Assembly (NCBI RefSeq): GCF_947494755.1
Contig: NZ_CANLVZ010000010.1
Coordinates: forward strand, 94,388 to 158,387
Reading direction: 5' to 3'
Source of the DNA: an uncultured Tateyamaria sp.
GTDB lineage: Bacteria > Pseudomonadota > Alphaproteobacteria > Rhodobacterales > Rhodobacteraceae
Length of the DNA stretch: 64,000 nucleotides
The notes beneath the pieces are model-generated. The model searched no databases, was not told where the DNA came from, and was given only the letters and a program-made list of their open reading frames with translations. Positions 12,145-16,196 of the stretch are shown here, one piece after another. How positions within the stretch are numbered: position 1 is the stretch's first letter; every line of letters starts with the position of its first letter. Both the position numbers and the translations under genes were made by a program.

Positions 12145-12304
12145 CTAACGTTTGCGCCGCTTGCCCGGCACCTTTGAGGCAAAGCCGGGCGGGCGCTTGG
12201 CCACCCATTCAGCGAATTTGGCGAGGCGAGGATGGGCACGCAACGCCTCGGGTGTGGCATAGTCGCGGGCCAGTTCCGTCTCTGTCAGGGTCGCGTGAAT
12301 TTCC
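12145..12304 (-). pseudogene. HNH endonuclease, 3' part, cut off by transposon
   Basis: Read on the minus strand, the frame from EIHATLTETELARDYATPE to the stop at 12145-12147 is the C-terminal half of a small HNH endonuclease. It has KFAEWVAKRPPGF and a basic KRRKR tail. Its N-terminal half is at 16056-16196, on the same strand, across the inserted element. The two halves rejoin in frame around HHIC...EIHATL, which carries the last His of the HNH motif. The gene is therefore disrupted. Confidence 0.82.
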
Positions 12305-12328
12305 GGCCTTATGTATCAAACGCACCAA
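12304..12328 (+). repeat. Left terminal inverted repeat of transposon
   Basis: Starts CGGCCTTATGTATCAAAC and ends GCACCAA. It is the exact reverse complement of 16032-16056. Outward of base 12304 the two flanks no longer match, and inward of 12328 they diverge, so 25 bp is the full perfect repeat. Confidence 0.92.
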
Positions 12329-12361
12329 AACATCTGACACGTGATCCGTTACAACGTTGTC

Positions 12362-12745
12362 ATGACACGCAGATACTTCCGCCCGCTTAAACCCAAGACC
12401 GTGATCGACACGCTGCACTACGTCCGACAGGAAATGGTGCGCGAGGAACGCGATGGGCTAGAGCATGTAGATTACCTTCTTAGGTTATACGGTGCCGAGC
12501 CTATGGCGCTCAACATGCCAGCAAAGACGCCCAAGGACTTCCGCAAGGGCGAGCTGCGTCGGATGGTTCTTGAAACGCTTAGGAGTGGCCCGCAGACAGG
12601 GGCGGACCTTGCGAATGCGATCCAATCTTGCAAACCCAACCTAACCTATCAACAGGTTTACAGGCGGGTCTACGTATGTCTATGGGGTCTGAAAAAGGCA
12701 GGCCGAGTTAGACACACTGGGCGATTTTGGCTAGCGCCCAACTAG
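12362..12745 (+). CDS. Transposon passenger: winged-helix-like protein
   Basis: A 127-aa protein from ATG 12362 (MTRRYFRPLKPKTVID); an in-frame GTG at 12341 would add seven residues. The first half is charged and helical. The second half, GELRRMVLETLRSG...GADLANAI...YQQVYRRVYVCLWGLKKAGRVRHTGRFWLAP, has the helix-turn-helix plus wing pattern of MarR/PadR-like DNA-binding domains. It lies directly inside the left end. I do not recognise a named family; a role in transposition or regulation is inference. Confidence 0.7.
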   Translation: MTRRYFRPLKPKTVIDTLHYVRQEMVREERDGLEHVDYLLRLYGAEPMALNMPAKTPKDFRKGELRRMVLETLRSGPQTGADLANAIQSCKPNLTYQQVYRRVYVCLWGLKKAGRVRHTGRFWLAPN

Positions 12746-12763
12746 TCTCGCCATCACGCAAGA

Positions 12764-13339
12764 TCAGAACGATCCATTCTTACGCATGTGCAACACATCT
12801 AGTCGGCATATAAACCTGACAATATCTGGATGAAGACCATGATGCGCAGCTATCTGATCTTCGTCCATCTCCGCAGCTATCATTGGCTCTACCACGCTGT
12901 GCGGTAAAATCATCTCAGCCGCAGCCAGTAGGCCGTCGTCGTCTGCCGCCACTCTCGGTGTATAGGGCATGTCCACGCTGCTGAGTTCGTCGAATAGCTG
13001 TGAGACTGCCAGAGGTGTAGATGCGTATTTTTCAGGGGGTGTGAAGCAGTGCATCATCTCTTTTACCGCTACAAACTCCTTCCAATGCGGGTGCAAGTCT
13101 CGGTGGACGAAGACATGTGCTACGTCTGGTTCTTCCCCACTACTCACCAATCTTACAAACATACCATCTATGGGACGTTCAAGCATTTCGACGGATAGAT
13201 TGATTCGTCCAATTGATGAGTGTTCAGATGCCTCGACCGCGTCCCAAATTTCTTGGACACGCATAGCAGCGTTCATCGACCTGCCAGATTTGGCAAGACG
13301 ATACTTTCGCAATTGCTCAGAAATGTGAGAAAACTTCAT
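12764..13339 (-). CDS. Transposon passenger: degenerate ImmA/IrrE-like protein
   Basis: A 191-aa protein. Its core VAVKEMMHCFTPPEKY corresponds to the helix that carries HExxH in ImmA/IrrE peptidases, but the first His is Lys (KEMMH). Downstream, DDDGLLAAAEMILPHSVV aligns with the region holding the third zinc ligand (usually EAxxFAAxLLMP), and the protein ends with an HTH-like DEDQIAAHHGLHPDIVRFICRL. It looks like a relative of ImmA with an altered metal site. The gene follows a 58-aa gene on the same strand, 68 bases apart. Confidence 0.65.
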   Translation of the reverse strand: MKFSHISEQLRKYRLAKSGRSMNAAMRVQEIWDAVEASEHSSIGRINLSVEMLERPIDGMFVRLVSSGEEPDVAHVFVHRDLHPHWKEFVAVKEMMHCFTPPEKYASTPLAVSQLFDELSSVDMPYTPRVAADDDGLLAAAEMILPHSVVEPMIAAEMDEDQIAAHHGLHPDIVRFICRLDVLHMRKNGSF

Positions 13340-13407
13340 GGTGTGACCCTACAATATTGCTAGGGACGCACCGATCATGTTGTGTTCATCCAGCTACACG
13401 GCACTAC

Positions 13408-13584
13408 TTAGCCGAGTGTGGACGCATCTTCAAGGATTTCAGCGTGTTTAACAATGTTGGCCATGTTCGCATCAACATCAGATGCTTTTTGGCCATCAAT
13501 GTCATCAACATTCATGATAAATTTGATATCACGCACCTCATATCCAGGGTGTTTTTCCTGGAGTGCTGCGAAAAGTTTTTCCAT
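13408..13584 (-). CDS. Transposon passenger: small acidic protein (58 aa)
   Basis: Begins MEKLFAALQEKHPGYEVRD and ends KHAEILEDASTLG. It has an excellent ribosome-binding site, AAGGAGG (13591-13597), seven bases upstream of the ATG. Acidic and helical, with no membrane segment. It lies just upstream of the degenerate ImmA-like gene and is probably co-transcribed with it. The family is not recognised. Confidence 0.7.
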   Translation of the reverse strand: MEKLFAALQEKHPGYEVRDIKFIMNVDDIDGQKASDVDANMANIVKHAEILEDASTLG

Positions 13585-13797
13585 TGTGCACCTCCTTGTG
13601 CGTGTTAGATTAGTGGTCGCTTAGCACGACCATTGCAAGTCCACTAGACATCAATCACGACATTTTGGCAAAAATACGTCGCGGAAGCTCCTTTTCCTCT
13701 CAAAAGAACTTCTCATGATCATTGAAGGTTCCGTATGAACTTACACCAAAAGATATAACACATTGTTAACAAATTTTCAATGATCGCTAGCAAACGG
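13585..13797. promoter_or_regulatory. AT-rich region with inverted repeats
   Basis: Between the small passenger gene and the end of the transposase gene. TGGTCG/CGACCA (13614-13619, 13627-13632) lies just upstream of the small gene and could be an operator. GATCATTGAA (13717-13726) and TTCAATGATC (13776-13785) form a 10-bp inverted repeat close to the transposase stop. No further gene is seen. Confidence 0.4.
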
Positions 13798-14766
13798 TCA
13801 GCCAGTGGAGTGCCTTTGCCAGTACCCCTTCCAGTTGCGCGACACAGGCGCGGCCATTGAGTTACTTACTACAATCTGCGCCAGAGTACCGTTGTCTGTG
13901 CGGCGGTTGTCTTCCAACCAAGCGGCGTGGTTCGCATACTGATGCAGGTACTGCGGGCTAACATGGTGGTGCTGGCCCTGCACCATGCGGCGCAGGCGTG
14001 AGAAATAACTTTCCACCATGTTCGAGTGCTTGCCGTGGTCGCTGTAAATCTCTGAGTGGTTCACGCGGTCCACGTGATAGCCAGCGTGCAGCATATCCCA
14101 ATGGCTGGCCTCGTCCGCTGACATAGTTGCCATGCGGCTTACGTTCTCGTTTGCCAGCGCAACGCCTTCGCCCTCAGACATGCGAACGAATGGCAAAGTG
14201 CGGCCCTCACGCTCCCGCAGGGCAATGACGACACGGCGCTTGCCTGTCTGGTTCACTTTCAAGCGGCGGTCCTTGCGGTCTGCCTTGGCGTTCTCAGGGC
14301 GGATGTGACCACCGAAATACGCGCCATCAATCTCAACATGGCCCTGCAACACTTCGCCCGTCTGGACCTCTTGGGCCATCGCCTCGCGCAGCTTGTGGGC
14401 CAGCACAAAGGCAGTCTTGTACTGGCAGTCCAGATCACGGCTCAGTTGAACCATGCTCACGCCCTTAGAGGCGTTCACGATGATGCAGATCGCGCCCAGC
14501 AGGTCCACAAAGTCCATCTTGCGCGAGGCGAAAATGGTGCCGCTGGTTACGCTGAACTGGTGCGCACATGCCTTGCACTTGAATTTGCGGCGCGTGGTGA
14601 TCTTGTAGGTTTCGTGGTTGCTGCAACGGGGGCAAACCGCCTCACCGTCTGTTTCAGGCCAGCGCATCTGGCAGAACGTCTCGTAGGCCGCATTTTCGCC
14701 AGCCTTGTAGATCGACCGCAGTGAAAGCGTCCGAGAAGCTGCTGAAAGGAGGAAATGCTGGGCCAT
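13798..14766 (-). CDS. IS1595-family (ISXO2-like) transposase
   Basis: A 322-aa transposase, intact, moving the surrounding element. The N-terminus has a zinc ribbon CPRCSNHETY...FKCKACAHQFSVTSGTIF typical of this family. The catalytic domain has VEIDGAYFGG (first Asp), MSADEASHWD (second Asp) and HSNMVESYFSRLRRMVQGQHH, followed by QYANHAAWLEDNRR. The start is ATG 14766, reading away from the DUF6471 gene across the operator array. No frameshift or internal stop is seen, so it may be active. Confidence 0.92.
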   Translation of the reverse strand: MAQHFLLSAASRTLSLRSIYKAGENAAYETFCQMRWPETDGEAVCPRCSNHETYKITTRRKFKCKACAHQFSVTSGTIFASRKMDFVDLLGAICIIVNASKGVSMVQLSRDLDCQYKTAFVLAHKLREAMAQEVQTGEVLQGHVEIDGAYFGGHIRPENAKADRKDRRLKVNQTGKRRVVIALREREGRTLPFVRMSEGEGVALANENVSRMATMSADEASHWDMLHAGYHVDRVNHSEIYSDHGKHSNMVESYFSRLRRMVQGQHHHVSPQYLHQYANHAAWLEDNRRTDNGTLAQIVVSNSMAAPVSRNWKGYWQRHSTG

Positions 14767-14788
14767 TGTACTCTCTGTGATTACCTAT

Positions 14789-14866
14789 ATCATAAATATA
14801 GTACATACATATCACGTTTACAATGGCAAATATCACATTTATAGTGCCTTTATCATATATAGAGAG
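14789..14866. promoter_or_regulatory. Four phased operator-like repeats between divergent genes
   Basis: Four related 15-mers: ATCATAAATATAGTA (14789), ATCACGTTTACAATG (14811), ATCACATTTATAGTG (14832) and ATCATATATAGAGAG (14852). They are spaced 22, 21 and 20 bases apart, about two helical turns. They fill the space between the transposase start and the DUF6471 start. This arrangement suits cooperative binding by a small regulator controlling both genes; the DUF6471 protein is the obvious candidate, by inference. Confidence 0.55.
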
Positions 14867-14870
14867 CGCC

Positions 14871-15077
14871 ATGCCAGATCAGACTGATTGGGAAGCCAAA
14901 GCGGCGAACATGTTGAAAGCAGAGTTGAAGCGGCAGGGCGTTACGTACGCACAGCTTGCTGAGTTAATTGGGGATAAAGAGCCGAACGTCCGCAACAAAC
15001 TGTCGCGCGGCAAGTTTAGTGCAGCCTACATGCTAAAATGCTTGAACGCCGTAGACGTCGGGGAACTTAGAATTTAG
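14871..15077 (+). CDS. DUF6471 protein, probable HTH regulator
   Basis: A 68-aa protein beginning MPDQTDWEAKAANMLKAEL. The segment LKRQGVTYAQLAELIGDKEPNVRNKLSRGKFSAAYMLKCLNAV is a helix-turn-helix of XRE/DUF6471 type. Start ATG 14871 is chosen; an in-frame ATG at 14823 would add 16 residues running through the operator array. The 3' end overlaps the converging ImmA/IrrE gene by 11 bases. Confidence 0.8.
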   Translation: MPDQTDWEAKAANMLKAELKRQGVTYAQLAELIGDKEPNVRNKLSRGKFSAAYMLKCLNAVDVGELRI

Positions 15078-15558
15078 TCGCTGGAGCGCCCACTCTGATT
15101 GACATGGCGCTCTCAGAAACTTGAAAAATCTCTGCCAAAGCGGCCACCGATGTGGTTCCACTCGCGATGTATTGATTAAGTAATACGCGAGGCATCAGAA
15201 TGTCCGCTGCTAGCTTGTTGGCTTGCGCCTCCATGGCGTTACTCAACCGACTACGGTAAAGTCCATCATCAACAATACCATCGCCGATGAACCGTCTGTG
15301 CAGAATGAAATGAGCGATCTCATGGGCTGTAGTGAACCGGCGGCGATTGATGTGGTGGCCCTTGTTCACATAAATCGCATATCCAGATGAGCCGCCTTGA
15401 TCAGCAGACTTTACGATCTTTCCAGATAAGTCGTCAGGCCAGTTCGGAACGTGCCAAACTTTCAGGCCAAGATCATCGGCGATAGCGACAGTTTGTACCG
15501 GAGGCGAGGCCTGGTGTCGCTGAATGACCGATAGTTGCTCTGGATAAGTAAGGTTCAT
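15067..15558 (-). CDS. Transposon passenger: ImmA/IrrE zinc metallopeptidase
   Basis: A 163-aa ImmA/IrrE family peptidase. The zinc motif HEIAH is at 79-83 in RRRFTTAHEIAHFILH, and the third ligand Glu is at 110 in NAMEAQANKLAADILMP. The C-terminal SVAALAEIFQVSESAMSIRV is the usual short HTH-like tail. The family cleaves repressors (ImmA of ICEBs1, IrrE/PprI with DdrO). The start overlaps the stop of the two-TM gene (ATGA), so the pair is coupled. Confidence 0.9.
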   Translation of the reverse strand: MNLTYPEQLSVIQRHQASPPVQTVAIADDLGLKVWHVPNWPDDLSGKIVKSADQGGSSGYAIYVNKGHHINRRRFTTAHEIAHFILHRRFIGDGIVDDGLYRSRLSNAMEAQANKLAADILMPRVLLNQYIASGTTSVAALAEIFQVSESAMSIRVGAPATKF

Positions 15559-15971
15559 TCGTCTTTCGCTGGCGTTGCGCCCTCTATAGGCTGATCGTCT
15601 AAGCCGTAGTCACCGCTATGTTCGGGTTTGCTGTTGTCGTCTCTCGCCCTTACGGCGTCAAGTATGCTGAGTTGCTCTGATACAGTGTCTTTCGCCTCTT
15701 TCTCTGCTGCCTCTACGGCTGCACGAATGGCAGCATTCTTGATCTCAGTGTAACCGAAAAGGCCTAGAGCTGCGAGGATAAAGCCCACCAGCACCAATAT
15801 CATCTCAAGTATCGTGACGTTCAAGGCCAGCGCCTCAACAGTGTAACCAGTAGGACTGACGGGCATGAGGGCAGTTACTTCAGAGGCGCTATACCAGTAG
15901 ACAAAGAAAGCAAGATTTGCTGCCCCGACAATGGCGATGAATAAGATCAGTAGTCTTTTCGCCAACTTCAA
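15555..15971 (-). CDS. Transposon passenger: two-TM membrane protein
   Basis: A 138-aa protein with membrane segments at about 6-26 and 52-75, a short periplasmic loop, then a cytoplasmic Ala/Glu-rich helix KNAAIRAAVEAAEKEAKD and an acidic Pro-rich tail. No known family recognised. It is the first gene of a two-gene unit with the ImmA/IrrE peptidase and would place a partner or effector at the membrane, by inference. Confidence 0.72.
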   Translation of the reverse strand: MKLAKRLLILFIAIVGAANLAFFVYWYSASEVTALMPVSPTGYTVEALALNVTILEMILVLVGFILAALGLFGYTEIKNAAIRAAVEAAEKEAKDTVSEQLSILDAVRARDDNSKPEHSGDYGLDDQPIEGATPAKDE

Positions 15972-16031
15972 GACGCAAACCCCAGAAACAACTCACCATC
16001 GGATATCTGAAATCACAGGATACTGGAAGGC

Positions 16032-16056
16032 TTGGTGCGTTTGATACATAAGGCCG
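16032..16056 (-). repeat. Right terminal inverted repeat of transposon
   Basis: Exact inverse of 12304-12328 over 25 bases. It reads TTGGTGCGTTTGATAC then ATAAGGCCG on the + strand. On the outer side the HNH coding sequence resumes at once. Confidence 0.92.
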
Positions 16057-16196
16057 CAGATGTGGTGCAACAGCACCGTTGGCCCGCCTTTGCCACCTTT
16101 CAGCTTGGGGATCAGGTGATGCAGGCTTTGCGGGGCATCTGCCGGGATGGGGCGTCGGCAAAGCGGGCACAGGGGGACGGTCTTTGGATCGGACAT
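16056..16196 (-). pseudogene. HNH endonuclease, 5' part, cut off by transposon
   Basis: From the ATG at 16194-16196 the frame reads MSDPKTVPLCPLCRRPIPAD with a CxxC zinc pair, then LHHLIPKLKGGKGGP and LLHHIC, the start of the HNH core. At base 16056 it runs into the transposon end, giving an aberrant tail. The C-terminal half is at 12145-12304. The 5' portion could still be expressed as a truncated protein lacking the last HNH His. Confidence 0.82.

Follow-up and report, generated by a model that had tools for sequence, protein, structure and literature searches.

An insertion element of the IS1595 family interrupts an HNH-like gene in a 64,000-nucleotide stretch of DNA from an uncultured Tateyamaria sp. 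(contig NZ_CANLVZ010000010.1), which we call the window and whose first letter is position 1. Comparison of this element (12304-16056; 3753 bp, or 3.75 kb) with its relatives indicates that it is a transposon in which a small winged-helix protein, p134, likely chooses the site of insertion. The type of p134 is associated with the insertion site, and this association is independent of much of the remaining element. Because p134 type matches the site class while the transposase and a second conserved protein, DUF6471, do so less, p134 is most likely a modular target-site selector that would work like TnsD or TnsF.

p134 and DUF6471 belong to the element core

From named genomes, the transposase scan kept 80 relatives out of 212, and further loci came from 295 genomes of the family. 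Ends were found for 91 loci, giving 79 distinct elements with the window's included; duplicates were left out, and so were 12 loci in which one end or neither was located. Rows with a short or broken p134, five in number, were dropped from the p134 comparison. The transposase was present in 79/79 elements, a p134 homologue also in 79/79 (77 of them already picked up by the first round of an iterated profile), and DUF6471 in 78/79. Since they recur with the transposase in this way, p134 and DUF6471 are part of the element core and not cargo. The first-pass annotation, made from the sequence alone, had taken everything beside the transposase as one coherent cargo, a description that does not hold for these two of the six genes.

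A second set, drawn from genomes, plasmids and viral contigs, comprised 62 further loci, of which 33 delimited elements were kept; 22 loci in which no ends were found, six duplicates and L155, with doubtful ends, were left out. The transposases of these 33 elements show 28-92% identity, and p134 was found in 29 of them and DUF6471 in 22. Three elements of 1.5-1.7 kb (L162, L164 and L165) carry a transposase and p134, with no DUF6471 found, and L144 gave no p134 match in the element profile scan and a weak one (E 2.2e-4) in the genome profile search.

Insertions recur at the same codons

Exact 8-bp target duplications flank 70 of the 77 elements for which both flanks were available, two more have one mismatch, and five have no duplication (the window's, L070, L011, L035 and L100). 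Empty sites anchored on the duplication formed a tail of highly similar pairs. At the protein level, 107 sites yielded classes of insertions at the same codon: HNH (8 elements), comM (7), glycosyltransferase (3), upp (3), methylase (2) and smaller pairs. Both orientations occur in the HNH, comM, upp and methylase classes and not in the glycosyltransferase class, and an AT-rich motif is common to about 30 elements. The names of the targets come from Pfam (UPRTase 175 bits, Mg_chelatase 213, glycosyltransferase 52), and that of the methylase is weak (19.6, below the cut-off).

The HNH-like gene is entered at the codon HHIC^H. Eight elements of the first set and one in the same-genus genome G786 share this codon, so the insertion site in the window is not incidental. 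In comM, a Mg-chelatase-like gene, the site is NGVLFMDEFPE^F, in the Walker B region, and seven elements hit it at one codon (L102, L025, L042, L142, L143, L148 and L149). Insertions at the upp stop codon were seen in L027 (4940-5060), L032 and L033; the 8-bp duplication of L027 contains the stop codon, and the gene therefore stays whole.

Site classes follow the p134 tree

When six target labels were placed on the p134 tree (74 rows), six changes were needed, with a minimum of five and 18.2 in shuffles (0/200 as low). The same labels needed 15 changes on the transposase tree (1/200 shuffles as low) and 18 on the DUF6471 tree (113/200). The HNH label alone changed twice on the p134 tree, eight times on the transposase tree and seven times on the DUF6471 tree. 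A label-free comparison of 69 elements gave r 0.401 between p134 identity and site similarity (0/500 permutations), as against 0.064 for the transposase (75/500) and 0.123 for DUF6471 (12/500), and the p134 correlation was 0.398 with the transposase held constant.

Leaving out one element at a time, the nearest p134 gave the right class in 52/52 labelled elements, including 24/24 with gene targets, class E and unlabelled elements being left out of this test. The nearest transposase was right in 32/53 (gene targets 11/24) and the nearest DUF6471 in 18/47 (2/18). Among the newly found elements, L142, L143, L148 and L149 lie at the comM codon and L119 at the methylase codon, and the p134 of all five join the p134 clades of their site classes; L142 and L143 had been found by p134 search, and L148, L149 and L119 by transposase searches. 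The enlarged p134 tree needed seven changes for seven labels (minimum 6; shuffles 23.7, 0/200). Taken together, p134 type covaries with insertion site independently of the transposase, with the exceptions of L037, L075, L035, class E and a 13-member clade.

A second lineage at the same site

G786 was noticed only during a check for intact copies of the HNH-like gene, as its own copy is split. Its element belongs to another IS1595 lineage inserted at the same 8 bp, with a clean CACATCTG duplication, other ends (CGGTATTAGGTAGCAAGC...) and no DUF6471 detected. Its transposase shares 57% identity with the window's and comes nearest to that of L121 (71%). Its p134, however, is 72% identical to the window's, and the best seven matches are all of the HNH class, followed by L075 in eighth and L070 in ninth place. 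As a rule p134 changes much more quickly than the transposase (median pair identity 28% versus 82%), so this reversal points to an exchange of p134 between element lineages together with the site.

Exceptions and alternative explanations

Several observations weigh against p134 as the determinant of the site. For thirteen close p134 proteins forming one clade, no shared site or motif was found; in the 12 with usable flanks, the best 6-mer was reached by 29/200 permutations. The p134 of L037 falls inside the glycosyltransferase clade and that of L075 pairs with the HNH-type L070, and neither element is at the corresponding site. L035 has a methylase-type p134 with other flanks and no duplication, while the two class E elements (L023 and L048) have a common site (0.65) without a common p134 clade. 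L163 (1132 bp), which has lost most of p134, lies at the same codon of an integrase-core gene (rve_3) as L162 (1543 bp), where p134 is present; the two are 74% identical, so the loss in L163 may be later. In addition, related elements are not independent of each other, and the AT-motif class was assigned by visual inspection of the site list, prior to seeing any tree. These exceptions may reflect relaxed specificity or help in trans, or p134 may not be the whole story.

A further point on this side is that the transposase also carries part of the signal. Labels cluster on the enlarged transposase tree (19 changes; shuffles 23.9, 0/200 as low), and the nearest transposase predicts comM in 7/7 and upp in 3/3, as expected if site preference were held by the transposase itself or by the ends, with p134 merely travelling along. 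However, the nearest transposase is right for only 1/9 HNH, 0/3 glycosyltransferase and 0/2 methylase elements, and the HNH class is no better placed on the transposase tree than in shuffles (500/500 as low). Nor is the site reflected in the terminal 60 bp, with no correlation on the left (0.039, 73/300) or on the right (-0.006, 160/300), and the elements of the window and G786 share a site despite their dissimilar transposases and ends. We consider control by the transposase or the ends improbable.

The position of p134 raises another explanation. As the gene is mostly found next to one of the terminal repeats, it could be carried along by a crossover in the flank, and elements at the same site might swap p134 through homologous recombination within the flanking gene that they share, producing linkage without function. 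The orientations speak against this, as p134 lies beside opposite target halves in the HNH, comM, upp and methylase classes. In L059, moreover, p134 is on the other strand and adjoins the transposase, yet the site is still HNH, and recombination leaves the landing of the new elements at one codon unexplained. Such swapping is in our view the least probable of the alternatives, and very unlikely in itself.

It could also be argued that p134 is a general regulator or accessory transposition factor and that the recurrent sites are those that host selection tolerates. Winged-helix proteins are commonly repressors, the upp site leaves its gene intact, and the 13-member clade has no fixed site, all of which would agree with this. 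Tolerance would not, however, make sites group by p134 type regardless of host and transposase lineage, and the HNH, comM, glycosyltransferase and methylase genes are broken by the insertion. This explanation is a little less probable than control by the transposase or the ends, and p134 as a target-site selector is the reading that we carry forward.

The split gene and its junctions

The HNH-like gene is on the minus strand, with its 5′ half at 16057..16196 and its 3′ half, stop included, at 12145..12303. A homologue of the 5′ half was present in 24/61 genomes searched, and the gene is unbroken across the junction in 22 of the 24 homologous loci, most same-genus matches among them, the exceptions being the window and G786. 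These intact relatives bear out the earlier proposal that the element sits in a gene that resumes on both sides. The name HNH endonuclease given to that gene fared less well: the Pfam model PF01844 scores 17.0 bits on the 5′ half alone (cut-off 21.4), and at E 1e-3 Pfam returned nothing for the unsplit-frame peptide of L003. The pattern C..C...HH...CH...H is one that we take to be HNH-type; the name is weak, and we call the gene HNH-like only.

A plain single insertion, as first proposed, is not what the junction shows, because the 8-bp target duplication is missing; the minus-strand flanks are CACATCTG and GAAATTCA, and 7 bp are missing at the right junction relative to an intact same-genus copy (L179). 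Such a duplication is usual in the IS1595 family but not universal; its absence here most probably reflects a small deletion that occurred later at the right junction. A different element, L070, has the same junction as the window (GAAATTCA; 12303/16057 in the window), likewise without a target duplication. The junctions of L035 and L113 are similar to this one (GAAATGCG and GAAATATC), and those of L011 and L100 differ. In IS1, deletions beside the element arise when a second strand transfer strikes an AT-rich site, and a later deletion of this kind would fit the window, L070, L035 and L113.

The p134 protein

The p134 gene (12362..12745, plus strand) starts with ATG, with a GTG at 12341 as alternative start; it encodes 127-134 amino acids (aa) and lies at one end of the element, reading inwards. 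The window's p134 matched no Pfam family, and single relatives gave weak matches to winged-helix families. Its predicted structure (predicted local distance difference test 90.2, predicted template-modelling score 0.56) consists of two helices followed by a winged helix, confident over residues 63-134, and this model looks like many DNA-binding regulators.

A profile search returned 554 proteins at E 0.001, with no precomputed Pfam domain among the 120 matches listed. In 394 genomes of the family, 30 places matched p134 at E 1e-20 or better, and 26 of them coincide with IS1595 transposase loci, whole or in pieces. The remaining four each have at least one terminal repeat in the stretch retrieved, and one of them, L132, is a derivative that has kept p134 and lost the transposase.

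Ends, transposase and exchangeable cargo

The assignment of 12304-16056 to the IS1595 family is upheld by the transposase (13798..14766, minus strand), which exceeds the cut-offs of PF12762 (DDE_Tnp_IS1595; 124.2 bits, cut-off 27), of NF033547 (139.8, cut-off 75) and, for an N-terminal zinc ribbon, of PF12760 (52.4, cut-off 25.4). The 25-bp inverted repeats described earlier were located at 12304..12328, on the p134 side, and at 16032..16056; they match perfectly, and simple arithmetic predicts no perfect 25-bp inverted match by chance in 4 kb. The transposase and the six further genes reported inside the element are all present. The source genome has one full copy of the element and one distant transposase (31% identity). 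At 13801-14766 the transposase has a full-length match (E 2.5e-72) to phrog_25593, a PHROG family without assigned function, and IMG/VR contigs hold relatives of it.

Divergent from the transposase gene is the one for DUF6471, a helix-turn-helix protein (14871..15077, plus strand; PF20075, 77.1 bits, cut-off 26.8). The other four genes are all on the minus strand and rare among the 79 elements. A 191-aa protein (12764..13339) and a 58-aa open frame (13408..13584) occur in 1/79 each, the window's, and matched no Pfam or NCBIfam family at E 0.1. An ImmA/IrrE-like M78 peptidase (15067..15558; PF06114, 55.7 bits, cut-off 22), found in 8/79, contains HEIAHF and resembles PADLOC capP (E 2e-23). Its partner, a 138-aa membrane-like protein (15555..15971), has an uncertain TTG start, overlaps the M78 gene and occurs in 5/79 elements, each of which also has an M78 gene. 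Of the two protease modules once proposed, a single protease-like gene (M78) is supported.

Across the 79 elements, 175 cargo frames of at least 80 aa fell into 93 clusters, and 81 representatives were scanned. The matches were mixed (Panacea, RelE, HicB, RhuM, Bro-N, M78, BstA (2), PDC-S05, HEC-09, PDC-S23 and capP), those to PADLOC being among 25 of 62 families listed. No single function emerged among the scanned cargo, and coherent cargo was rejected as an explanation. Several of the matches are to anti-phage or toxin-antitoxin models (BstA in 2/81, PDC-S05, HEC-09, PDC-S23, capP-like, Panacea, RelE and HicB). The commonest cluster lies in the left part of 31/79 elements; its representative, a 350-aa frame (e.g., L041:4665-5714), had no Pfam match at E 1e-4.

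ImmR/ImmA-type systems are regulator-protease pairs, and the M78 peptidase beside a helix-turn-helix gene is similar to them. In contrast to such pairs, DUF6471 is found in 78/79 elements and M78 in 8/79, so the two are not a fixed pair, and an ImmA/ImmR pair controlling the transposase was not supported.

Discussion

We propose that p134 would bind a conserved target sequence and bring the transposase there, and that the transposase would cut the element at its 25-bp ends and attach these, 8 bp apart, where p134 marks the target. The DUF6471 protein would probably regulate the divergent transposase gene, and the M78, membrane-like, 191-aa and 58-aa genes are exchangeable cargo. p134 behaves as a module: elements that share a p134 type tend to occupy one codon or motif, several classes including both orientations, whereas transposases, DUF6471 and ends are mixed among the sites. 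The window's p134 type goes with the HHIC^H codon of the HNH-like gene. More broadly, we think it likely that IS1595 elements of Alphaproteobacteria carry a minimal form of protein-guided transposition. A DDE transposase would be accompanied by a fast-evolving winged-helix selector of about 127 aa, which would be exchanged between lineages and steer the element to conserved places (the comM Walker B, the upp stop codon and the HNH-like codon are examples), with the 1.5-1.7-kb elements as its two-gene version.

The element resembles the IS1595 family in its DDE_Tnp_IS1595 and zinc-ribbon domains, in ends starting with (C)GG and in the 8-bp duplications of its relatives. Members of that family usually have a single transposase gene, according to PMC8101967, whereas here p134 and mostly DUF6471 accompany the transposase, and the sites are recurrent and gene-specific. 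Searches of openly licensed papers listed none that describes a target selector for IS1595. The Tn7-like selectors TnsD/TniQ and TnsF, as described in PMC10293859, are similar in being dedicated element-borne proteins whose type goes with a conserved site. The comM Walker B region is also the one reported there for TnsF of Tn6022 and Tsy, and the upp site, where a housekeeping gene ends, recalls attTn7. Unlike TnsF, a relative of tyrosine recombinases, p134 is a protein of about 127 aa with a winged helix. Unlike Tn7-like elements, there is one DDE transposase of another family, and most gene targets are broken; no TnsC ATPase or TniQ-domain protein was found by Pfam and NCBIfam among the seven proteins of the window's element. 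The element works like a target-selector system; it is not a Tn7-like transposon.

If this is true, Tn7-like elements with an ATPase hub are not alone in having dedicated target selection, and the selector's job would be done by a small winged-helix protein that accompanies a single transposase. It would also represent a third, unrelated way of hitting the comM Walker B region, after Tn6022 and Tsy (PMC10293859). Selector exchange and the gain of new targets would become testable, as natural pairs with different sites are in hand. It would further suggest that genes now called passengers of insertion sequences merit re-examination as components of the machinery of transposition.

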